From Gallionella sp. (GTDB taxonomy: Bacteria; Pseudomonadota; Gammaproteobacteria; Burkholderiales; Gallionellaceae): a stretch of 64,000 bases of DNA. The DNA lies in assembly GCA_028710525.1 (NCBI GenBank), contig JAQTTY010000001.1:275955-339954 (forward strand), written 5' to 3'. Shown piece by piece: positions 3,483-41,040 of this stretch. The notes under the pieces are model-generated. The model did not search any database. It was not told the origin of the DNA and saw only the letters and a list, made by a program, of their open reading frames with translations. The stretch's first letter is position 1; every line of letters starts with the position of its first letter. A program made the position numbers and the translations under genes.

Positions 3483-3514
3483 AAAAGCGGGGCGCTTAGG
3501 CGCCCCGCTTTTTT
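3483..3514 (+). terminator. Rho-independent terminator after first porin
   Basis: AAAAGCGGGGCGC-TTAG-GCGCCCCGCTTTT perfect 13-bp stem followed by T tract. Confidence 0.9.
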
Positions 3515-3738
3515 ATTGTCTGAACTTAATGCTGTGACATGAATCTGTGTACCGCTCGCTGTGGGAATATGAAAGTAATGTTGCAGAAAAGCTACAGTGG
3601 AGCGCAAATCATTGAGGTAGGGCTTGCGTGAAATATTGCGGTGAGGATAATCCGCCGCAGAAGTCACCCGACTTGGGGATTTGCTTGTAATGATGCTGGC
3701 GTGAGCTGGTGACTAACTAATTAAACGAGGAGTTTTAC

Positions 3739-9044: not shown

Positions 9045-9461
9045 TTACTCTTGTATCACCTCAAAATCATGGGTCACCGCAGCAGTAGCACCCAGCATGA
9101 TAGAAGCCGAGCAATACTTCTCTGCGGATAACTTGATAGCCTTTTCCACGACTTCTGGTTTGATGGCGCGGCCAGTGACGACGAAGTGCATATGGATGGT
9201 GGTGAAGACTTTGGGGTCAGTCTCAGCACGTTCTGCGCTCATTTCCACATAGCAGTCGGTCACGTCCTGACGACTTTTCTTGAGGATGGTGATGACGTCG
9301 TAGCTAGTGCAACCGCCCGCACCTATGAGCAACATCTCCATGGGGCGCGGACCCAGATTGCGGCCTCCTCCGGCGGGTGCGCCGTCCATCAATACAGCGT
9401 GGCCACTTTCGGTCTCACCTAAGAATGCGACCTGTTCTACCCATTTGATGCGTGCTTTCAT
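9045..9461 (-). CDS. OsmC family protein
   Basis: RPMEMLLIGAGGCTSYDVITILKKSRQ motif. Confidence 0.9.
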   Translation of the reverse strand: MKARIKWVEQVAFLGETESGHAVLMDGAPAGGGRNLGPRPMEMLLIGAGGCTSYDVITILKKSRQDVTDCYVEMSAERAETDPKVFTTIHMHFVVTGRAIKPEVVEKAIKLSAEKYCSASIMLGATAAVTHDFEVIQE

Positions 9462-9647
9462 GTCTTTCCCTGTTATTTGTTAGGTTGCAGATTTTATTCG
9501 ATAGCGGCATCTATCTTCCATCTAGTCGGATATATTTTGCTTATCTAGAGTGCCCATACTGCTTATATAAAGGTATGCACTTGGGGTGTGGTGGTGCGAT
9601 AGCGCAGTTTTTTGGGGAGCGTATCAAGAACTAAAGACAAAAAGGGT

Positions 9648-9677
9648 TTGACACGTTCGCCGAGGCTGAAATAGAAT
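9648..9677 (+). promoter_or_regulatory. Candidate sigma70 promoter of rplM-rpsI
   Basis: TTGACA, 18-nt spacer, TAGAAT upstream of rplM. Confidence 0.55.
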
Positions 9678-9724
9678 GCGCGCCCTTCGAGGTTTACTTA
9701 CAAGAATTTTTAGGAATTGTGGCT

Positions 9725-10162
9725 ATGAAAACATTTTCCGCTAAAGCCCAAGAAGTCCAGCACGACTGGCTTCTGGTTGACGCAGCAGACCAAGTGCTAG
9801 GCCGCTTGGCTGCACAAATCGCTTCCCGTTTGCGCGGTAAGCATAAAGCGATCTACACACCGCACGTAGACACTGGCGATTTCGTCGTAGTGGTCAATGC
9901 TGACAAGCTGCGCGTGACGGGTAACAAGGCTGAAGCCAAGCTGTACCATCGCCACACGGGTTACCCCGGCGGTCTGTACACGACTAACTTCACTAAGTTG
10001 CAAGGTCGCCATCCCGCACGTGTCTTGGAAAAGGCCGTTAAGGGTATGTTGCCTAAAGGCCCTCTGGGCTATGCAATGTTGCGCAAAATGAAGGTGTATG
10101 CAGGTGCAGCGCATCCACACGAAGCGCAGCAACCTAAACTTGTTAACTTGTTGAAAGCGTAA
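9725..10162 (+). CDS. rplM: 50S ribosomal protein L13
   Basis: [39 protein letters not shown]-like motif. Confidence 0.97.
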
Positions 10163-10164
10163 TC

Positions 10165-10557
10165 ATGAGCGTGACTTATAACTACGGTACGGGTCGTCGC
10201 AAGAGCGCGGTCGCTCGTGTATTCCTTAAAGCCGGCAAGGGCGACATCGTTGTTAACGATAAGCCAGTCGATGTGTTCTTCTCTCGTGAGACAGGTCGCA
10301 TGATCGTGCGCCAACCTCTGGAGTTGACAGAAATGATGGGCAAGTTTGACATCATGGTTAACGTGACTGGTGGCGGCGAAGCTGGCCAAGCAGGTGCGGT
10401 TCGTCACGGTATCACTCGTGCACTGATCGACTACAGCGCTGACTTGAAGCCGGTGTTGAAGGCAGCGGGTCTGGTGACTCGTGATGCTCGTGAAGTTGAG
10501 CGTAAGAAAGTCGGTCTGCGTAAAGCTCGCCGCAGGAAGCAATTCTCCAAGCGTTAA
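10165..10557 (+). CDS. rpsI: 30S ribosomal protein S9
   Basis: [16 protein letters not shown]-terminus [12 protein letters not shown]. Confidence 0.97.
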
Positions 10558-10572
10558 TCGCTACGGGATGTA

Positions 10573-10598
10573 CAAAAGCCGCCTTCGGGCGGCTTTTG
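10573..10598 (+). terminator. Terminator-like hairpin after rpsI
   Basis: CAAAAGCCGCC-TTCG-GGCGGCTTTTG. Confidence 0.8.
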
Positions 10599-10691
10599 CT
10601 TTGGGCTTTGTTGTATTATGCGCAACTCTTAGCGATGCCCGTGCGGGCTTGCGCAGACTCGGAATTTTGCTATCAGGACAGGAATCTTTAG

Positions 10692-11720
10692 ATGATCAAA
10701 GTCGGTATCGTTGGTGGGACAGGTTACACGGGCGTGGAACTGCTGCGTCTGCTGGCTGTGCATCCGCACGTCTCTTTGCAAGTGATCACTTCGCGCGCCG
10801 ATGCGGGCACGCCGGTGAGCCAGATGTTCCCCAGCTTGCGCGGCTATGTTGATCTGCCTTTCTGTCATCCTGACGAAGCCCATTTGGAAAACTGCGATCT
10901 GGTGTTCTTTGCTACGCCCAACGGTATTGCCATGCAACAGACTCGCGCATTGTTGGACGCGGGTGTGAAGGTGATCGATCTCGCGGCAGATTTTCGTATT
11001 AAGGATATCGCGACTTGGGAAAAGTGGTATGGCATGAAGCACGCCTGCCCAGACCTGGTTGAAGAAGCAGTTTATGGCCTGCCGGAAGTGAATCGTGCGC
11101 AGATCAAGTCGGCACGTCTGATTGCCAATCCCGGCTGCTATCCGACCGCGGTGCAACTGGGTTTCATCCCTTTGCTCGAAGCGGGTGTGATAGAAACGGG
11201 CAGCCTGATCGCCGATGCGAAATCGGGCGTGTCGGGTGCGGGACGCAAGGCTGAGATAGGTTCGCTATTCTCTGAAGCTGCGGATAGTTTCAAAGCTTAC
11301 GGTGTGGCGGGTCATAGACATCTGCCCGAGATCAAACAAGGTTTGGCTAGAGTTAAATCCAGCGAGGTTGGTCTGACTTTCGTGCCGCACCTGACCCCTT
11401 TGATACGCGGTATCCATGCCACTTTGTACGGGAGGCTGAACAAGGACATCGATCTGCAAGCGTTGTTTGAAACTCGCTACAAGGACGAAGCATTTGTTGA
11501 CGTGATGCCTGCGGGCAGTCATCCGGAGACACGCTCCGTGCGCGGCTCAAACCGCTGCCGTATCGCGGTGCATAGGCCTCAGGGTGGCGACACGGTAGTG
11601 GTGTTGTCGGTCATCGATAATCTGGTCAAGGGTGCTGCCGGTCAAGCGGTGCAGAATATGAATATCATGTTTGGTCTTCCTGAGACTACTGCACTGAATA
11701 TCGTGCCTTTGCTGCCATGA
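10692..11720 (+). CDS. argC: N-acetyl-gamma-glutamyl-phosphate reductase
   Basis: [37 protein letters not shown]. Confidence 0.96.
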
Positions 11721-12457
11721 TATTTCGCAAGATCAAGCGCAAGTTCAGTATCGATGCGACGCAGTTGTCGGTGCGTCCTCATGTAGCTTGGTATGTGCGT
11801 TGGAGCATCTATATCCCATTTGTGTTGGCTGCCATAGGCTTTGCATGGTGGGCATACGATAGCGGACTTGAGTTAGCCGGTTTCCATCGTGGCCAGACCC
11901 AGCGAGAATTAGAGCAGTTACACACACAGGTTGCGACGCTGACTCAGGAAAATCTGACCTTGAACAACAAGGTGGCACAGTACGAGCAGCAGCTCCAGAT
12001 CAACGAGGCGAGCAGTGCCGAAACGGCTAAACAGCTGAAGACGCTCAGCGAAGAAAACTCGCACCTGCAAGAGGACTTAGGTTTCTTCCAAAATTTGACG
12101 GAGACACGTGGGAAGGCGGGTGAGTTGGGAGTGCACCGATTGCGCGTGGACCCCGATACCATGCCGGGGGAGTATCGCTTGCGTATGTTGTTGGTGCAGA
12201 GCGGTCAGCGTGCTAAACAGTTCAGCGGTTCCTACCAGTTATTGGTCTCTGTGGTGCAGGATGGTAAGCATACGACACTGGTATTCCCTGCTACGGATGG
12301 GGACAAGTCTCAATTTAAGCTCGATTTCAAGTATTATCAGCGCGTTGAGCAAGCGCTGCATTTGCCGCCCACGGCAATACTAGAGAATGTGCAAGTTAGG
12401 GTGTTCGAGGGAGATGCTCACGAACCCAAGGTCAGACAGACTGTTACGCCATCCTGA
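11717..12457 (+). CDS. Hypothetical membrane/coiled-coil protein (DUF6776-like)
   Basis: One N-terminal TM segment then coiled coil; overlaps argC stop. Confidence 0.6.
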
Positions 12458-27279: not shown

Positions 27280-28686
27280 TTACAGCTCAGAATGGGTGTT
27301 CATCGAAACATGGACCGCGCTACCTTCGCGCTGAGTGTGATCGTTGAGCTCTTTCAAGTGATCGCCAAAGCTTGCCATTCCTCCGTTGCCATTGTCGGTG
27401 CCTGTATTGGCAGTTCCGCCTATACCAGCACTCTGACCCTTTGCACTTGATGTAGATGGCGTGGGTGACACATCCTGACGTTGATGCGGCGGATTGTTCC
27501 CATGCGAAATTGAGGGGCTAGGGGCTTTGCTGCTTGGAGATTCAAAGTCAGAACGCTTTGGTGGCGTTGAACCATTTGCAGCTATTTCAGCGAAGGACAT
27601 GGCTGGAGCTTGTGGTGCAGGACCAGAATCTATTTCTCTACCGCCGATTCCACCTCTAGATTCATTTTTTGCGGCAGCTCCTCCTCCGGCACTCATGCTC
27701 TTAAGCAAATTGCCAATCGGACCTGTACTTTTTGCACCTGAGGCTATTGAGGTTCCGCCTGATACAGCTGCTGCAGCTGCTGCACCAGCAACTGCGCCCA
27801 CTGCTGCTGCATCGCCAGTGCTCATCTGCGACGAACCTGATGACAGCATTGCGGCAATGCTGTCTGCTTTCCATGCAACACCAAAGAGCAAAACGTATCC
27901 AAGCGCAGCGGCCCAGATTGGCGGCCAAACACTAGGATCTGACATTGAAGGAAGCGTTGCGAATTCTTTGATGATCTCAGCACTGAAAGCAGTCATCGTG
28001 ATCAGAATCGCAGCGTAGATCATTATTCTGTATACGAGTGAGATGAGATATTTGAGAGGCGCAAATCCCTGCTCGCGCAAAGCGTCTAGACCTAATAAAG
28101 CAAAACTGATTGGTGACAGTGCCACCACAATCTTGGTTTCAATGAATGTCATCAATATTTTGAAGGCAATCAGGGCCGAAGTTCCCAAGATAACAACGCT
28201 CACTAAACCCATCATGATCGAGGGGAATGGATTGAGTGATTGAAAAATTCCTTGGGACTTATCCAGTTGCTCCAGCAAGGATGATGCAACCTCTATTCCT
28301 TTATTTAGCGGAGAGGTGGGGTCAAATGCAACTGCCCCTGATCCACTTCCTATTTGAAGAAATTCAGCCGCAACTTTAGAGATGAACGGCCCGCCGTGTT
28401 CAAATACATACAAAGCAATTCCAGCCCACATGAGTGATCCAATAAATTTTGCAAAGACTTGCTCTAGATCAGCGCCTGTTATGAGTTTGGTTATATTGGT
28501 CCATGTAAGCTGAAAGATCATGAACAGGCATAGCCATCGCAGTGCTACGCCTTGTAGCGTGTTGGAAACTGTTCCCAATGATGTTTCCATTGAACTCATC
28601 AGCAACTCTGTTGCGGCTTGTTGAGTTGCACTGAATGCTGGCGATGTAAAGAGCAGCAATGCGATTATCACTAAATATTTTTTCAT
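27280..28686 (-). CDS. trbL: P-type conjugative transfer protein TrbL (VirB6-like)
   Basis: Signal peptide, multiple TM segments, Gly/Ser/Ala-rich hydrophilic C-terminus; position after trbJ and small ORF. Confidence 0.85.
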   Translation of the reverse strand: MKKYLVIIALLLFTSPAFSATQQAATELLMSSMETSLGTVSNTLQGVALRWLCLFMIFQLTWTNITKLITGADLEQVFAKFIGSLMWAGIALYVFEHGGPFISKVAAEFLQIGSGSGAVAFDPTSPLNKGIEVASSLLEQLDKSQGIFQSLNPFPSIMMGLVSVVILGTSALIAFKILMTFIETKIVVALSPISFALLGLDALREQGFAPLKYLISLVYRIMIYAAILITMTAFSAEIIKEFATLPSMSDPSVWPPIWAAALGYVLLFGVAWKADSIAAMLSSGSSQMSTGDAAAVGAVAGAAAAAAVSGGTSIASGAKSTGPIGNLLKSMSAGGGAAAKNESRGGIGGREIDSGPAPQAPAMSFAEIAANGSTPPKRSDFESPSSKAPSPSISHGNNPPHQRQDVSPTPSTSSAKGQSAGIGGTANTGTDNGNGGMASFGDHLKELNDHTQREGSAVHVSMNTHSEL

Positions 28687-30783: not shown

Positions 30784-31515
30784 CTACAGCCCTGCTTTGT
30801 CAAGTTCAGCAAATACTTCTTTGACTACTTTCTGTAAGCGGTTTTTTGCTAAAAAGCTGAAGTCAGAAGAATCCATTACATCCGCGAGCGTCATGTTGCG
30901 CTCAGTCATTTGTTTCATGTCGCCGGTGAATGTGTCTGACTGGCTCCGATCAATGATTTTGACGATGCCTGCAATTTTTCCAGCTTTTTCAGCTTCTCTA
31001 AAAAGTTTGCCGGCAGAGATAGGCAGCCCGTCAAATTCAACCTTGCCCCAAAATTCATTTTCCCAGACGACGACTTTTGCATGGTTGTTTACCTTGCTAA
31101 GCAGTTCCGCAAAGCCGTTGAAGGTGTCAGGCTTGGCCTGCCCGCCGGTTAAGACGGTATGAACAAAAACTTTTTTCCCTGCCTCTGCCATGATTTGAAA
31201 AATGTCGTTTTCGGCTAGGTATCTGGTCAAAGGCATGAAGGTGGCAGCCCCGTTATCTATTACGAAATCTGCATCACTTGAAACAATCAACTCCATTAAA
31301 GGGTCAAACTTTCTCTGAATGACATTGCCTCCCTCTGCAATCTCGATGTGCGCAACATCTAGTGACTTGTATCCGGAAAATGTGGCATTTACCGGATCGG
31401 TGTCGGCGCAAACGACCTTATAGCCAATGCTCTGGAGATACTGAGCAATCAGTACAGCTATCAGCGATTTACCAACGCCGCCCTTGCCCTGCAAAATCAT
31501 GTGAATACTGCTCAT
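30784..31515 (-). CDS. traL: TraL-like ParA-family ATPase
   Basis: IHMILQGKGGVGKSLIAVLIAQY, DTDPVNATFSGYKSL, DNGAATFMPLTRYL as in RP4 TraL. Confidence 0.9.
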   Translation of the reverse strand: MSSIHMILQGKGGVGKSLIAVLIAQYLQSIGYKVVCADTDPVNATFSGYKSLDVAHIEIAEGGNVIQRKFDPLMELIVSSDADFVIDNGAATFMPLTRYLAENDIFQIMAEAGKKVFVHTVLTGGQAKPDTFNGFAELLSKVNNHAKVVVWENEFWGKVEFDGLPISAGKLFREAEKAGKIAGIVKIIDRSQSDTFTGDMKQMTERNMTLADVMDSSDFSFLAKNRLQKVVKEVFAELDKAGL

Positions 31516-31533: not shown

Positions 31534-31917
31534 TTAAGTGTTATCTACTTCAAATTTTGCTAAGGGGATTGCGCTGTGCTCCCCCTCCCTTGCCTTGCCG
31601 GATAAAACTCGCAGTGGATTACCTGTTGCTGGTAAAACCGGCGCGGGTCTTGTTGCATGGCTGTGATTTGGTAATTTGCTATTTGTAGTCGTTACGCCTT
31701 TGTTCTCTTTTCTGATTCTGTAAACAGCCAGTTCAAAGCTGGCAAATGAAAGTGAGATTCCACTTTCCATTAGCACTTTGTGGACATCCTTCCGTGGCAC
31801 GCCAGCCCGTAATGCATTCTCAATTTCATTGAAAATTTCACGAATCCTCGCGGTCGCAGACCTATTTTTCCCTCTGGCTAGGCTCTGTAGCTTTTCTGAT
31901 ATGTCGTTGTTACCCAT
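31534..31917 (-). CDS. traK: TraK-like oriT-binding protein
   Basis: SATARIREIFNEIENALRAGVPRKDVHKVLMESGISLSFASFELAVYRIRK; upstream of traL. Confidence 0.85.
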   Translation of the reverse strand: MGNNDISEKLQSLARGKNRSATARIREIFNEIENALRAGVPRKDVHKVLMESGISLSFASFELAVYRIRKENKGVTTTNSKLPNHSHATRPAPVLPATGNPLRVLSGKAREGEHSAIPLAKFEVDNT

Positions 31918-32036
31918 CTGATTTGCACCTGGTTTGTGTTGATGTGTTCCTTATGATTTTTTTATCTCCTTCTCGCTTGCAGTTGATGTGTGCATTATGT
32001 CTTTGTGATAAATAATTACAAATAATCAATAAATTA

Positions 32037-32083
32037 AGCGACACGCAGCGGCATGGAGCGACAGCGAGCGACACACAGCGGCA
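32037..32083 (+). repeat. Direct repeats in oriT (candidate TraK-binding region)
   Basis: AGCGACACGCAGCGGCA (32037-32053) and AGCGACACACAGCGGCA (32067-32083), plus AGCGACAGCG at 32057. Confidence 0.75.
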
Positions 32084-32136
32084 ATCTATTCATTACTCAA
32101 TTTGTGCAGGTATTCTGTAAATGCGGGGCAGGACGG

Positions 32137-32155
32137 AGGGCGGTTGCACCGCCCT
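32137..32155. promoter_or_regulatory. Inverted repeat next to nic (candidate TraJ site)
   Basis: AGGGCGGT-TGC-ACCGCCCT. Confidence 0.7.
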
Positions 32156-32265
32156 TAAAACACACTCAACGCCTTCGGCTTATTCATGATGTTTTTGTCC
32201 TGCGCCTGGCGGCGAGCTGGATTCGTTTTCTCGCCTCAACTGAGAATTGAAACGAAGGATTGGTT

Positions 32266-32631
32266 ATGTCTGTGAGATCAGAATCGCGACAAAAAACTGT
32301 GACGATTGGTGTACGAGCAACACCAATCGAAAAAGAAAAATTGAAATCGCGTGCCGAGGCATTTGACGTGTCGGTTGGTGAGCTTTGTCGCCAAGCAATA
32401 TTTGGTGCAGTTCCAAAATCAAAGACCGATCAGGATGCGCGGCGTGAGCTCGCCGCTACACGTGCCGATTTGGGCCGGTTGGGTGGATTACTGAAAGGAT
32501 GGTTGTCCGGTTCCTTTGAGCAAGGCGCACCGGTAGCTAAGACTCATGCTGATGTAGTGAAGCTGCTGCGCGACATTGAGGCTACACAACAGCGTGTTGT
32601 TGCTGCCGTTAAAAAATTGGCCGAGAAATAA
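32266..32631 (+). CDS. traJ: TraJ-like relaxosome accessory protein
   Basis: VGVRATPIEKEKLKSRAEAFDVSVGELCR-type RHH and RADLGRLGGLLKGWLSG as in RP4 TraJ. Confidence 0.88.
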   Translation: MSVRSESRQKTVTIGVRATPIEKEKLKSRAEAFDVSVGELCRQAIFGAVPKSKTDQDARRELAATRADLGRLGGLLKGWLSGSFEQGAPVAKTHADVVKLLRDIEATQQRVVAAVKKLAEK

Positions 32632-35114
32632 TGATTTCTAAGCGCATCAACAGTCGCAAGGATGGCAAGTCGTCAGCAGTTGCTGCTTTGCGTTATGGGG
32701 AAGGGCTGGTTCCTGACCGCGAAACTGGTGAATTCCTAGATAAATCGCATCGCACCAGGTTGGGTAACTTTGGTTTAGTTGACGATGGCGTGTACGCCGA
32801 CCGCACCACAGAGGAAATGTCTGAACTGATTTCGTTGGCTGGGCTTGAGATGCAAGACGTGTGCGATCTCAACACCCGTGTAGGTGCAGACAAAAAGCTT
32901 GCGCACTTTGTTGTCTCTTTTAATCAGGATAGGCCAAGTGAAGCGGTGTTGCGTGACACAGAGGATTCCATGCTTGCAGCAATGAAGTTGGATAAGAACC
33001 ACTTCGCTACTTTTCTTCATAACGATAATGGCTATTGGCACCTCCACATTTTTTCGAGTCGGATTGAGAAGGAAAAGCCACATCGCGGCAATGCGCTGTG
33101 GCAAGACAAAACCATGCGCGACAAGGTTTGCCGAGAGGTTGAACTACGCCACAAATTGCATCGTGATAACGGTATGCATAAAGTCGATGAGCAGGGGCAG
33201 CTTGTTGAGATACCGCGCGACGAACGCAGGGCTATTCGAGATGCAAAGCCAGTCGGAATAAGTGACCGTGCCAAAACGACCGAGATATATTCCGGTGAAA
33301 AGTCATTCCAGACCTGGTGCAATGAAATCAGAATCGGCGACAGGCTCAAACACGCTAAGAATTGGCAAAATATGCACGTTGCCGCTGCGGCCTATGGCTG
33401 CGAGGTAAAACCCAAGGGGGCTGGCTTCATCATCTGCCCGATTGGGCAGCGGGGTGCTATCCAGTTATCCAAGGTAGGTCTTAAAAATCTACCTGCCAAA
33501 TTCGGTGCGTTTGAGGTTGCCAAGCTCGGTCATCATGCGCAGCTAGAAACCGCCTATACACCTTCATCTACTAATACCAAGGCAGCAAGCCATTACGACC
33601 AATGGCGCAAAGCCAAGGATGCATTCAAGCCCCACAAGACTGAGCAGATCAGTGTGCAGCGCGAATCACACAAGCAGATTCGCGCGACATTGCGCGCGCA
33701 ACATAAAGCTGAACTTGAAAATATCCGAGCTACTAAGAAAGGACAGGAGCGTTTTGCTGCTGTCTCGATTGCCAAAATGCAACATACCGTCGCACTGGCT
33801 GAACTAGCAGATCAGCTTAGACGTGAACGACAAATTTTGCGTAGGCAACTCGCCGGTGAGGGGCCAGGCAATACTTTCCGAGACTACTTAGTGAGGGAGG
33901 CGGCCAAGGGCGACAACATTGCGTTAGGCCTTGCACGTAAGTATGGCGTGGATGAAGTCACAGACGTTTTGCGCAAGCGCGAGGTCGAACAGCTCAAGAT
34001 TGTGGCAGTCATCACCGGCAGGGAGTATCGCCCAGCATTTCGTCTACATTTCACCCATCACATCGAGCGAAATGGATCTGTTGTATTCAGTCTTGGTTTT
34101 GGGCGGACGATTACCGACAGCGCGATTTCTAGGCAGCTACAGCTCAATTCTGCCGCAGCTAACAACCCCGAGGCCATTGCCACTGCGCTGAGTTTTGCGA
34201 CCACACGCTTCGGCAACACGCTCACTCTTACGGGCTCACAGGAGTTCCAACGACTCGCCGTGGAAACCGCAGTCCTTAAAGGGCTAGGAATCAAGTTCGC
34301 TGATCCAGCCTTGGAAGCATATCGAGAAAAGTTTGCAGCAGAGCAGCAACGTAAATCATCCATCCAACCACAGGAAAAACTCAATGCATCCCGTTATAGA
34401 AACAAGCACGCTCAACAAGTCCCACCTGCCAACCTCCGAGATCGCTTGCGCCACTTGTCCCCTGGCGACTTGGTACTCGACACCGAACGAGATGTCGGCG
34501 CACTGCGGTCGAATGTTTATGACCGTGTGGAACAGCAACAAGAAGGGAGCGATCACGGAATGCAGCGCACAGCAGGAAGCGTTGCAGGAAAAGGAGTTGG
34601 AAGAGCAGCAGACGAAGGTATATCTCCATCAGGAGCCTCGCGCGCAACTGTCTTCGACGATGACAACTTCGTTCGGTCTGGCCGTGCAAGAGGTGAGCCA
34701 ACCAGTCGTGGCCGATCAATCGCCGTTTCTGTAGTCGTTCCATCCAACCAACCTGCGCAGCAGGAGCAAGCGCAGCGCGCAGCCGCACCAGCGGCGGAGA
34801 TTCCAACTGAGCAGCTGCAAGTTGAAGTTGTGCCCAATCCACAATCGCTTACGGCAGCTGAGTGGATTGCCGCACACGGGAAGCGAGAAGTGCAACCACA
34901 CTATACCGGCGATACATCAGTTGAATATTCCGTTGCCTACATCGCGCACGATGGCGTGGTGATTAATCACGGCGCCGGAAACATGGCTACCTATCCATTA
35001 CCACCCAACACTGTTTTACATGTTGGACAGAAAATCATCATCGACAAATCAGGAGCAGTTTCCATCTCTCCTAGACGCACCGAAGTTGAGGGTGGAAAGG
35101 GCAGGGGAGATTAG
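32631..35114 (+). CDS. traI: TraI-like MOB_P relaxase
   Basis: N-terminal MISKRINSRKDGKSS; motif III HNDNGYWHLHIFSSRI; overlaps traJ stop. Confidence 0.92.
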   Translation: MISKRINSRKDGKSSAVAALRYGEGLVPDRETGEFLDKSHRTRLGNFGLVDDGVYADRTTEEMSELISLAGLEMQDVCDLNTRVGADKKLAHFVVSFNQDRPSEAVLRDTEDSMLAAMKLDKNHFATFLHNDNGYWHLHIFSSRIEKEKPHRGNALWQDKTMRDKVCREVELRHKLHRDNGMHKVDEQGQLVEIPRDERRAIRDAKPVGISDRAKTTEIYSGEKSFQTWCNEIRIGDRLKHAKNWQNMHVAAAAYGCEVKPKGAGFIICPIGQRGAIQLSKVGLKNLPAKFGAFEVAKLGHHAQLETAYTPSSTNTKAASHYDQWRKAKDAFKPHKTEQISVQRESHKQIRATLRAQHKAELENIRATKKGQERFAAVSIAKMQHTVALAELADQLRRERQILRRQLAGEGPGNTFRDYLVREAAKGDNIALGLARKYGVDEVTDVLRKREVEQLKIVAVITGREYRPAFRLHFTHHIERNGSVVFSLGFGRTITDSAISRQLQLNSAAANNPEAIATALSFATTRFGNTLTLTGSQEFQRLAVETAVLKGLGIKFADPALEAYREKFAAEQQRKSSIQPQEKLNASRYRNKHAQQVPPANLRDRLRHLSPGDLVLDTERDVGALRSNVYDRVEQQQEGSDHGMQRTAGSVAGKGVGRAADEGISPSGASRATVFDDDNFVRSGRARGEPTSRGRSIAVSVVVPSNQPAQQEQAQRAAAPAAEIPTEQLQVEVVPNPQSLTAAEWIAAHGKREVQPHYTGDTSVEYSVAYIAHDGVVINHGAGNMATYPLPPNTVLHVGQKIIIDKSGAVSISPRRTEVEGGKGRGD
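34384..34734 (+). CDS. Cys-containing small protein encoded in an alternate frame inside traI (traH-position)
   Basis: MHPVIETSTLNKSHLPTSEIACATCPLATWYSTPNEMSAHCGRMFMTVWNSNKKGAITECSAQQEAL...; AGGA-like RBS 8-12 nt upstream; +1 frame relative to traI. Confidence 0.65.
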   Translation: MHPVIETSTLNKSHLPTSEIACATCPLATWYSTPNEMSAHCGRMFMTVWNSNKKGAITECSAQQEALQEKELEEQQTKVYLHQEPRAQLSSTMTTSFGLAVQEVSQPVVADQSPFL

Positions 35115-35575: not shown

Positions 35576-35695
35576 ATGGCACAGGACACTCCAAAAAACC
35601 TAAGTCAGGTGCCGCGCTTGCGCCGTCATCACGCGTTGGACGATGCCAAGGCAAACCGATTAGCCTGGTTGGCTTGGAAGGATGCAAGCAAATGA
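35576..35695 (+). CDS. 39-aa microprotein coupled to HAD1
   Basis: MAQDTPKNLSQVPRLRRHHALDDAKANRLAWLAWKDASK, ATGA overlap with the next start; not in ORF track. Confidence 0.5.
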   Translation: MAQDTPKNLSQVPRLRRHHALDDAKANRLAWLAWKDASK

Positions 35696-36147
35696 TTGTC
35701 TTCCTAGACTTTGATGGAGTGCTGCACCCAGAACTTCCAGACCGGGCAGATGATTTTGCTTGTCGCTCGCACTTCTGGCAGATATTGCGTGCCTGTCCAC
35801 ACGTGGACGTGGTTTTTTCAACCTCCTGGCGTGAACTGCATCCCGTTCATGAGTTGATCGACTTTGCGACACAAGGCGGCGGGGAAGATTTAGCGCATCG
35901 GTTTATGGGCTCGACACCTTGCATACCTCAAGAGCCGGTTGGATCACGCATCGAGCAGTACTACTGCCGAGAAAGCGAATGTCGCTTGTGGTTGGCCGAC
36001 AACGGACGAGAAGAGTCCTCATGGCTGGCTATTGATGATTTCTCTGCTTACTTTTCACCATCCTGCCCCTCGCTCTATGTGGTTGACCACACAACTGGAC
36101 TGACAGAATTGGATGCCGAAAGGTTGATTGAAAGGCTAAAAAAATGA
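35692..36147 (+). CDS. HAD-fold protein 1
   Basis: MIVFLDFDGVLHPE (motif I), STSWREL (motif II), WLAIDDF (motif IV). Confidence 0.8.
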   Translation: MIVFLDFDGVLHPELPDRADDFACRSHFWQILRACPHVDVVFSTSWRELHPVHELIDFATQGGGEDLAHRFMGSTPCIPQEPVGSRIEQYYCRESECRLWLADNGREESSWLAIDDFSAYFSPSCPSLYVVDHTTGLTELDAERLIERLKK

Positions 36148-36815
36148 TTCTCTTCCTAGATTTCGATGGCGTGCTACACCACGAAAATGTCACCGTGAAA
36201 CGTTGCCCACCGGCCGCGCGGCGTTACCTCAAAGCGCATGAGAGCCGCTTCCTGACGCGCGACGGTAAGCTGGTCAAGGGTAAGAATATGTTTGAGCATG
36301 CTGACAGGCTGGCAGCGGCTCTTGAGCCGTTCCCAGATGTACGGATTGTGATTTCATCGACATGGCGCGAGCATTTCCGTCCCGAGAAACTCTTGCAGTT
36401 TTTGCCCGCTACGCTTGCCGACCGCGTGATCGGACATACCCCACTTTGCGATAAGTTTGGTGGGGTGGGATCACGGCTGTTCGAGATATTGGCCTACCTT
36501 GAGGGAAATGGATTGGCTGGTGAGCCTTGGATCGCTTTGGATGACCAGGCACAGCTCTTTTGGGACGATACTGAAAATCCACCGGACAACCTGTTTATTC
36601 TGAAAGGCGAAGAGGCTTTTTCAGAAGCGGTGGCTTTGGTCTTCAGTGAGTTTCTGAATCAGCACAAACTCACTGACAAAACACATCACGAACAGCTTGT
36701 GGCTCCACACCTTGATACCGCCTACACCGCTGAGGATATTCAACGCGCTATTGCAGACGAGGAGCGTCTAGGAGCACGGAATGTGCCGAGCGACATTCTG
36801 AAATTGAGCCTATGA
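36144..36815 (+). CDS. HAD-fold protein 2
   Basis: MILFLDFDGVLHHE, SSTWREHF, WIALDDQ; ATGA overlap. Confidence 0.8.
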   Translation: MILFLDFDGVLHHENVTVKRCPPAARRYLKAHESRFLTRDGKLVKGKNMFEHADRLAAALEPFPDVRIVISSTWREHFRPEKLLQFLPATLADRVIGHTPLCDKFGGVGSRLFEILAYLEGNGLAGEPWIALDDQAQLFWDDTENPPDNLFILKGEEAFSEAVALVFSEFLNQHKLTDKTHHEQLVAPHLDTAYTAEDIQRAIADEERLGARNVPSDILKLSL

Positions 36816-38190: not shown

Positions 38191-41040
38191 ATGACCCCTC
38201 AGCAGTTCATACAAAAATGGCAAGGCAATACGCTTAAAGAGCGTGCCAGTTACCAACTCCACTTCATTGATTTGTGTGCTTTAGTGGGTGTTTCGACACC
38301 AGAACCAGCAACAGCCGAAACATATTGTTTTGAACGCGGTGCAACACGTACTGGTGCAGGGCAGGGTTGGGCCGATGTATGGAAACAAGGCTATTTCGCT
38401 TTTGAATATAAAGCCACACGTCGCAATCTAGGCGAAGCACTTAAACAGTTGATGACCTACGCGCTAGCGCTGGACAATCCACCGTTGCTTGTCGTGTGCG
38501 ATACCAATATCATCGAAATCCACACACATTTCACCAACGCACCAAGTGAGGTTCATACCATCTCGCTGGAAGAAATCAGCGAACCGGCCAACCTCGATAA
38601 ACTGCGCTGGCTTTTTACCGACCCAGACAAGTTCCATCCCAAGCGCACCATCACCCAGATCACTGAGGAGGCGGCAGGTACATTTGCAGACCTTGCGCAG
38701 TCGTTGAATGTGAGAGGCCATGCCCCACAAGACGTTGCACATTTCCTAAACCAATGTTTGTTCTGTATGTTTGCAGAGGATGCGGAATTACTCCCTGGGA
38801 AATTATTTGAACGCTTGCTTGATAAGAGCCAGACCGATACCGACAAACTAACCACGCGTTTGGAATCCTTATTTTCCTCAATGCGTAAAGGCGGTGACTT
38901 TGGTGCTGATGACATCGCCTGGTTTAACGGTGGCTTGTTTGAGAAGGTCAAAGTGTTGCCGCTTGAACCGTCAGAAATCAAGATGCTGTTTCATGCGTCA
39001 ACGCTCGATTGGAGTGGTATTGAGCCGTCCATATTTGGAACGCTATTTGAACGCGGTCTCGACCCACAAAAACGATCACAGCTCGGTGCGCACTACACAG
39101 ATCAGCAATCAATCTTGCGCATTATTAATCCTGTCATTGTCGAACCTTTGACCAAGGAATGGGACGTTATTAAACTGAAACTCAGTGAGTTACATCCTAA
39201 GTTTGCTCTAATTGGAAAAAGGAAGGACGCTCCAAACGAAGCGATGAAGGAAGGATATAAACTATTTCTCGGTTATCTTGAACAAATCAGAAACTTCCGA
39301 GTGCTAGATCCTGCTTGTGGCAGCGGTAACTTTTTATATCTCGCTCTGCGTGCGCTGAAAGACCTCGAACACCGAGCCAACTTAGATGCCGAAGTTTTGG
39401 GATTACATCGAGAAATCAGTATTGAATGCTCACCAGCCAATGTGCTAGGCATTGAACTCAATAGCTATGCCGCAGAACTGGCGCGTGTGACTGTGTGGAT
39501 AGGTGAAATCCAGTGGATGCTCAAAAACGGCTATCCCATCCGCAAGAACCCCATTCTTCAACCACTAGACCATATCGAAAACCGCGATGCCGTGCTAAAT
39601 GCGAATGGCAGCGAAGCGCAGTGGCCTGCCGTGGATGCCATCATCGGTAACCCGCCATTTTTAGGTGATAAGAAAATGCGCGCAGAGTTAGGCAATGAAT
39701 ACACCGAAGCCCTGCGCAAATGCTACGCTGACCGCGTGCCAGGTGGTGCTGACTTGGTGGTGTATTGGTTCGAGAAAGCACGTGCACAAATCGAAGCGGG
39801 CAAGTGTCGTCGCTCGGGATTAGTTGCCACGCAATCCATCCGCAAAGGATCAAACCAGAAAGTGCTGGCACGTATTTGTAATACCACAAAAATATTCAAC
39901 GCCTGGAGTGATGAGGAATGGATTAACGAAGGCGCAGCGGTGCGTGTCTCACTGGTGTGTTTTGGCAATGTCGAACGCATGCAACTTGATGGACAAACCG
40001 TTGAAGCCATTCATGCCGACCTTACGGCGGGTAACAATCTGACACAAGCCAATGCGCTAGAAGAAAATGCGGGGGTGGCTTTTCAAGGCCCGGTTAAAGT
40101 CGGTTCATTTGATATTCCTGGTGAGATTGCGCGGCAATGGCTTAAGCAACCCAATCCGAACGGAAGACCAAATAGCGATGTGGTGAGGCCATGGGCGAAT
40201 GGTCAAGATGTAACCGGCCGTCCTTCCGATACTTGGATTATCGACTTCGGTGCTGACCGCACAGAGCAAGAAGCGGCACTATACGAGACACCGTTTGTGC
40301 AGGTATTGCGGGAGGTTAAGCCACAGCGTGATGCGCAGAACGATGCAGGTCGTAAAGCAAAATGGTGGTTACACGGTAGGACAGGGACTGATTTCCGCGC
40401 CGCAGTCGCGCCGCTCAAACGCTACATTGCAACGCCGCGCGTAGCTAAGCATCGGATGTTCGTTTGGTTGGATGTAAGCGTGTTGCCAGACAGCCGCCTT
40501 TACGCCATTGCTCGCGATGATGATGTTACCTTTGGCGTGCTCTCTTCACGAGTTCATGAGGTTTGGTCGCTGGCTAATGCGTCCATGCACGGAGTGGGAA
40601 ATGATCCAACTTACAACGCCAAATCGTGCTTCGAAACTTTCCCTTTTCCAGAATGGCTAATGCCAAACCTCACTCCAGCAGATTGCACTAATGCGGTAAC
40701 CACCGAGATTGCAACCGCAGCACAGGAGTTAAACAAACTGCGCGACAACTGGTTGAATCCTATCGAGTGGGTGGACTGGTTACGAACACCAGCAGAAGAA
40801 AAAGCTGACTATCCGTTGCGTCCTGTCCCTAAAATCGGGCATGAGGATGAACTTAAAAAACGCACGCTAACCAATCTATACAATGCCCGCCCAGCATGGT
40901 TGGATAACGCCCACAAGACTTTGGATGCGGCAGTCGCAAAAGCCTACAACTGGAACGACTACACCCCAGAAATGACCGACGAGGAAATTTTGCGGCGGTT
41001 GTTAGTGCTGAATCAAACAAGATTCATAAACATTGCTTAA
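38191..41040 (+). CDS. MmeI-like type IIL restriction-modification enzyme
   Basis: Nuclease motif D-x9-EYK (ADVWKQGYFAFEYKA), motif I DPACGSGNFLY, motif IV NPPF, C-terminal TRD. Confidence 0.85.
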   Translation: MTPQQFIQKWQGNTLKERASYQLHFIDLCALVGVSTPEPATAETYCFERGATRTGAGQGWADVWKQGYFAFEYKATRRNLGEALKQLMTYALALDNPPLLVVCDTNIIEIHTHFTNAPSEVHTISLEEISEPANLDKLRWLFTDPDKFHPKRTITQITEEAAGTFADLAQSLNVRGHAPQDVAHFLNQCLFCMFAEDAELLPGKLFERLLDKSQTDTDKLTTRLESLFSSMRKGGDFGADDIAWFNGGLFEKVKVLPLEPSEIKMLFHASTLDWSGIEPSIFGTLFERGLDPQKRSQLGAHYTDQQSILRIINPVIVEPLTKEWDVIKLKLSELHPKFALIGKRKDAPNEAMKEGYKLFLGYLEQIRNFRVLDPACGSGNFLYLALRALKDLEHRANLDAEVLGLHREISIECSPANVLGIELNSYAAELARVTVWIGEIQWMLKNGYPIRKNPILQPLDHIENRDAVLNANGSEAQWPAVDAIIGNPPFLGDKKMRAELGNEYTEALRKCYADRVPGGADLVVYWFEKARAQIEAGKCRRSGLVATQSIRKGSNQKVLARICNTTKIFNAWSDEEWINEGAAVRVSLVCFGNVERMQLDGQTVEAIHADLTAGNNLTQANALEENAGVAFQGPVKVGSFDIPGEIARQWLKQPNPNGRPNSDVVRPWANGQDVTGRPSDTWIIDFGADRTEQEAALYETPFVQVLREVKPQRDAQNDAGRKAKWWLHGRTGTDFRAAVAPLKRYIATPRVAKHRMFVWLDVSVLPDSRLYAIARDDDVTFGVLSSRVHEVWSLANASMHGVGNDPTYNAKSCFETFPFPEWLMPNLTPADCTNAVTTEIATAAQELNKLRDNWLNPIEWVDWLRTPAEEKADYPLRPVPKIGHEDELKKRTLTNLYNARPAWLDNAHKTLDAAVAKAYNWNDYTPEMTDEEILRRLLVLNQTRFINIA

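Follow-up and report, generated by a model that had tools for sequence, protein, structure and literature searches.

Accessory genes that overlap the relaxase gene are known from RSF1010 (MobB) and ColE1 (MbeB/MbeD). In RP4, the acidic protein TraH is encoded within traI and stabilises the TraI-TraJ-oriT complex (PMC7314908; PMC10521675). We analysed a stretch of 64,000 nucleotides of a Gallionella sp. contig (JAQTTY010000001.1; hereafter the window) in which a 116-codon frame lies inside a traI gene, and comparison with plasmid and genome sequences indicates that this frame is very probably a true overlapping gene that belongs, as a divergent member, to the IncP TraH family.

The host gene product scored 253.7 bits against the NCBIfam model TraI_MobP_relax (cut-off 250). 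The surrounding genes showed an RP4-type layout (Table 1), with the traJ-like gene and traI/traH facing the divergent traK and traL positions across a putative oriT; the traK gene was assigned by position only. The intergenic region between the traK-position gene and the traJ-like gene carried a perfect 8-nt inverted repeat (AGGGCGGT/ACCGCCCT, 32137-32155) and a run of gcgacac/gcggca repeats, and the RP4 nic consensus YATCCTGY was absent from it (31918-32259). No traG was present downstream of traI in the window. The place that traG holds in IncP plasmids, directly downstream of the transfer genes, was occupied by two adjacent and apparently tandemly related genes (35674-36147 and 36144-36815) whose products start with MI(V/L)FLDFDGVLH. 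Adjoining the transfer region we also observed an MmeI-type restriction-methyltransferase fusion (38191-41040, Pfam MmeI domains), and a TrbL/VirB6-like gene lay on the minus strand at 27280-28686.

Table 1. Transfer genes of the window and elements of the nested traH frame (positions in the window).
Feature	Position	Strand	Basis
ParA/CbiA-type ATPase in traL position	30784..31515	-	Pfam CbiA, E=1.2e-9
Small gene in traK position	31534..31917	-	Position relative to RP4-type layout; no Pfam match
Divergent intergenic region, position of RP4 oriT	31918..32259		Between traK-position gene and traJ-like gene
traJ-like (NikA-like) oriT-binding protein, directly 5' of traI	32260..32631	+	Pfam NikA-like, E=4.7e-15
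traI, MOBP relaxase, 827 aa (Relaxase PF03432, TraI_middle, LPD7)	32631..35114	+	Pfam, NCBIfam
Shine-Dalgarno-like AGGA	34372..34375	+	8 nt 5' of TraH ATG
traH homologue, 116 aa	34384..34734	+	+1 frame within traI; profile and alignment with RP4 TraH
Conserved TraH core, approximately residues 16-62 (P16, C22, C25, W30, C41, W49, C60)	34429..34569	+	Alignments

An earlier note on this DNA had pointed to a 116-aa frame, offset by +1 from traI and preceded by a sequence resembling a ribosome-binding site, and both observations were confirmed. The frame runs from the ATG at 34384, the sole ATG or GTG preceding the Cys core, to the stop codon at 34732-34734, wholly inside 32631-35114, and AGGA or AGGAG recurred at similar spacing 5' of the ATG in nearly all TraH relatives inspected. 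From stop to stop it spans 34288-34734 (148 codons). The length of the frame was considered as evidence for traH and rejected, being within chance: when the synonymous codons of traI were permuted, 15% of the shuffled sequences kept the 116-codon stretch open and 4% kept the 148-codon stretch open, and in 35% a +1 run of 148 codons or more arose anywhere in traI. The statement that the frame is unlike a random shadow ORF was thus not borne out on length; it did hold on composition and conservation. The overlap falls in the linker that makes up the C-terminal part of TraI after the LPD7 domain. When complete TraI was compared with plasmids by tblastn, most alignments ended near residue 560-600, just where TraH begins.

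A TraH profile was built from 16 relatives with own-genus sequences excluded, and it matched the window frame at E=5.1e-17, compared with E=0.15 for the best non-family match in the genome. When the 116-aa product was searched against plasmids by tblastn, matches fell in other traI genes, likewise in their +1 frame (E ~1e-8); one of these carried the label 'conjugal transfer protein TraH', and the homologous frames of pAKD33, pMBUI1 and pMCBF6 are annotated as TraH by their submitters. At the corresponding position and in the same phase of traI, RP4 (CP152305.1) has a frame of 119 aa that shares this Cys/Trp core. The core pairwise score between window TraH and RP4 TraH was 110 (z=18). Homology to RP4 TraH, which the earlier note had called not obvious, is therefore clear over residues ~16-62, and its suggestion that nested coding is retained at the traH position is supported both by this homology and by open frames in relatives; homologues with the frame open were found in many plasmids and genomes, including a relative of the same genus.

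The window protein resembles RP4/RK2 TraH in its nesting and phase within a MOBP TraI, its Cys/Trp core, its acidity, its own Shine-Dalgarno sequence and ATG, and its size (116 aa vs 119 aa, and a computed mass of 12.87 kDa for both). However, the two can be aligned over the core only: 21 residues precede the first Cys in window TraH vs 70 in RP4 TraH, the window protein continues for 55 residues beyond the core as a C-terminal tail, and it is less acidic (computed pI 5.2 vs 4.4). Nitrosomonas stercoris plasmid 1 (AP019756) also has a TraH-like frame within a TraI-like relaxase gene, with an identical phase (tblastn E=3e-5), but this frame is shorter (80 aa) and carries no annotation in the record. 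RSF1010 MobB and ColE1 MbeB/MbeD work alike, as relaxosome accessory proteins made from a second frame of the relaxase gene, whereas the Cys core marks TraH as a separate family.

The nested TraH core was found in relaxase genes of three classes, MOBP, MOBQ and MOBF. The MOBP hosts were many, the MOBQ (MobA-MobL) hosts were in Dickeya and on a Selenomonas plasmid (Bacillota), and the MOBF (TrwC) host was in Moraxella bovis; the gene of an IncQ-like relaxase-toprim protein also held the core. In the Selenomonas plasmid the core lies at 3501-3677 within the MobA/MobL relaxase gene, which places it beyond Pseudomonadota. All nested cases inspected showed an identical offset between TraH and host frame. 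In these cases the third reading frame is blocked over the TraH core, often by the TGA in the GTG-ATG of the CYCRVM motif, which offers a straightforward explanation of why the phase of the overlap does not vary. Among genomes sampled from the order, 13 of 398 had a TraH match, as did 7 of 159 in the family, and tblastn found TraH in more than 700 plasmid records, with few of the matches listed labelled traH. No model in Pfam, NCBIfam or PHROGs matched TraH, and the phage collection that we searched contained no match. TraH is thus a known but neglected relaxosome protein that is far commoner than annotation indicates. We found no description of its breadth across relaxase classes in the literature searched, which lay mostly outside the subscription journals.

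By analogy with RP4, window TraH is most likely a small acidic relaxosome protein that stabilises TraI-TraJ at oriT and carries a Cys4 metal site. The traJ-traI transcript would probably be translated twice in the overlap segment, once as the poorly conserved TraI linker after the LPD7 domain and once, from the Shine-Dalgarno sequence and ATG of traH, as the 12.9-kDa acidic TraH. TraH would then enter the relaxosome and stabilise the TraI-TraJ complex at oriT prior to nicking, as its RP4 homologue does, and nesting would couple its dosage and inheritance to those of its relaxase. Alternatively, the nested protein could be made and have another role, for example in controlling how active the relaxase is or how it couples to the transfer channel. 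We regard this as unlikely, though it carries some weight: the role of RP4 TraH is based on one published complex, and TraH pairs with MOBP, MOBQ and MOBF relaxases, which use different oriT-binding partners, so that a TraJ-specific role is not universal. For the members nested in or paired with MOBF and MOBQ relaxases, such a role would have to differ in some respect, and the general function of TraH may be broader. In the window, however, the partner set is RP4-like (traJ-like gene, traI and the divergent traK and traL positions), and this gene order fits a relaxosome-stabilising role for TraH.

The Cys4 layout of TraH is CxxC-x15-C-x18-C plus two Trp, with the four conserved Cys falling into two pairs. 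Cysteines C22, C25, C41 and C60 were invariant in all alignments, RP4 TraH included; P16 and W30 were invariant or nearly so, and W49 was replaced by Tyr in a few distant members. The earlier note had proposed that a CxxCP...HC arrangement could bind a metal. The invariant residues are the four cysteines rather than the H40-C41 pair, and we infer that a single structural metal ion, probably zinc, most likely organises the fold of the core. AlphaFold2 models of window TraH and of one IncP TraH were of low confidence (pLDDT 53-64), a Foldseek search of these models against the PDB gave nothing significant, and a PDB sequence search with TraH found no match. We considered whether the window gene is homologous to traH and has decayed to a non-functional state, with a cysteine of the CxC motif lost and the tail overextended. 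Position 39 is indeed Ala, giving AHC where the family, RP4 TraH included, usually has CxC, the tail past residue 62 is unconserved with the family, and core identity to the nearest relative is only 15/36. However, this residue varies elsewhere in the family (Ala in Rhodoferax, Arg in genome G297), the tail of the same-genus relative is similarly long, and the window gene retains every invariant Cys and the two Trp together with an intact start codon and Shine-Dalgarno sequence, so we judge decay to be very unlikely.

Selection was assessed in 23 IncP-like traI genes, using pairs whose relaxase domains were less than 60% identical; because such pairs are related by descent, they do not count as independent observations, and the values that follow show a strong pattern but should not be read as a formal test. 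Upstream of the TraH core, nucleotide change followed the codons of traI (0.38/0.30/0.63 by position), and over the core it followed those of TraH (0.14/0.13/0.39 by TraH codon position). Identity over the core was 80% for TraH vs 58% for TraI. Where TraI residues were identical, the same codon was used at a frequency of 0.88 in the overlap vs 0.39 upstream. The depression of synonymous change in traI that the earlier note had proposed looking for was therefore present in the IncP-like set; in the clade of the window one close relative with TraH was found, from the same genus (G312, TraI 60% identical), and its divergence was too great for rates to be estimated. This relative has kept the TraH frame, the ATG and the Shine-Dalgarno sequence. 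Over 36 core codons its identity to the window was 15/36 in TraH vs 14/36 in TraI, and the BLOSUM score was 101 in the TraH frame vs 47 in the TraI frame. A genome of the same family (G419, TraI 54% identical) had a shorter TraI, in which no TraH was found.

Since the core similarity exceeded z=5 in 66/66 pairs in the TraH frame vs 16/66 in the host frame, TraH is on these comparisons the conserved partner and the relaxase linker carries its shadow, with family-wide purifying selection acting on the TraH frame as judged from the alignments. The converse, that conservation resides in the TraI linker and that the +1 frame merely looks conserved through homologous DNA, is hardly credible: the weak similarity of the host-frame peptide among relatives, seen in those 16 pairs, and an ORF length within chance speak for it, but it is refuted at the family level by the greater similarity of the TraH frame, the concentration of change at TraH third positions and the suppressed synonymous change in traI, and TraH also occurs inside unrelated relaxases with non-matching host frames and where there is no long host frame at all. 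A long overlapping gene pair has thus been verified from sequence evidence alone.

The free-standing forms include one in the same genome (contig C3), where a 67-aa TraH homologue with its own Shine-Dalgarno sequence begins 25 nt beyond the end of a MOBF relaxase-helicase gene. The latter is of TrwC type and lies on the minus strand (9314-12184), and the free-standing TraH is followed by a gene whose product has a prepilin-type N-terminal methylation motif. A second free-standing TraH was found in a genome of the same genus, ~400 nt upstream of a helicase-bearing gene of 1.5 kaa in a transfer-like region. We lean slightly towards a general reading in which TraH, rather than being peculiar to IncP, would be a widespread Cys4 relaxosome cofactor that has entered the linkers of MOBP, MOBQ and MOBF relaxases in the one phase that its core permits and persists next to some relaxases as a free-standing gene, with the TraH core as the sequence under constraint and the linker as a by-product. 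TraH in RP4 and IncP is known already; its breadth across relaxase classes and its free-standing forms may be less expected. The presence of nested and free-standing TraH in one genome makes possible a direct test of the effect of nesting on relaxosome assembly.

A third TraH copy in the genome of the window was nested in a second MOBP traI (contig C30, 3253-5583). Downstream of this traI lies a 'DFDGVLH' gene that resembles the one at 35674-36147 in the window, and this shared gene suggests that contig C30 and the window represent two related elements.
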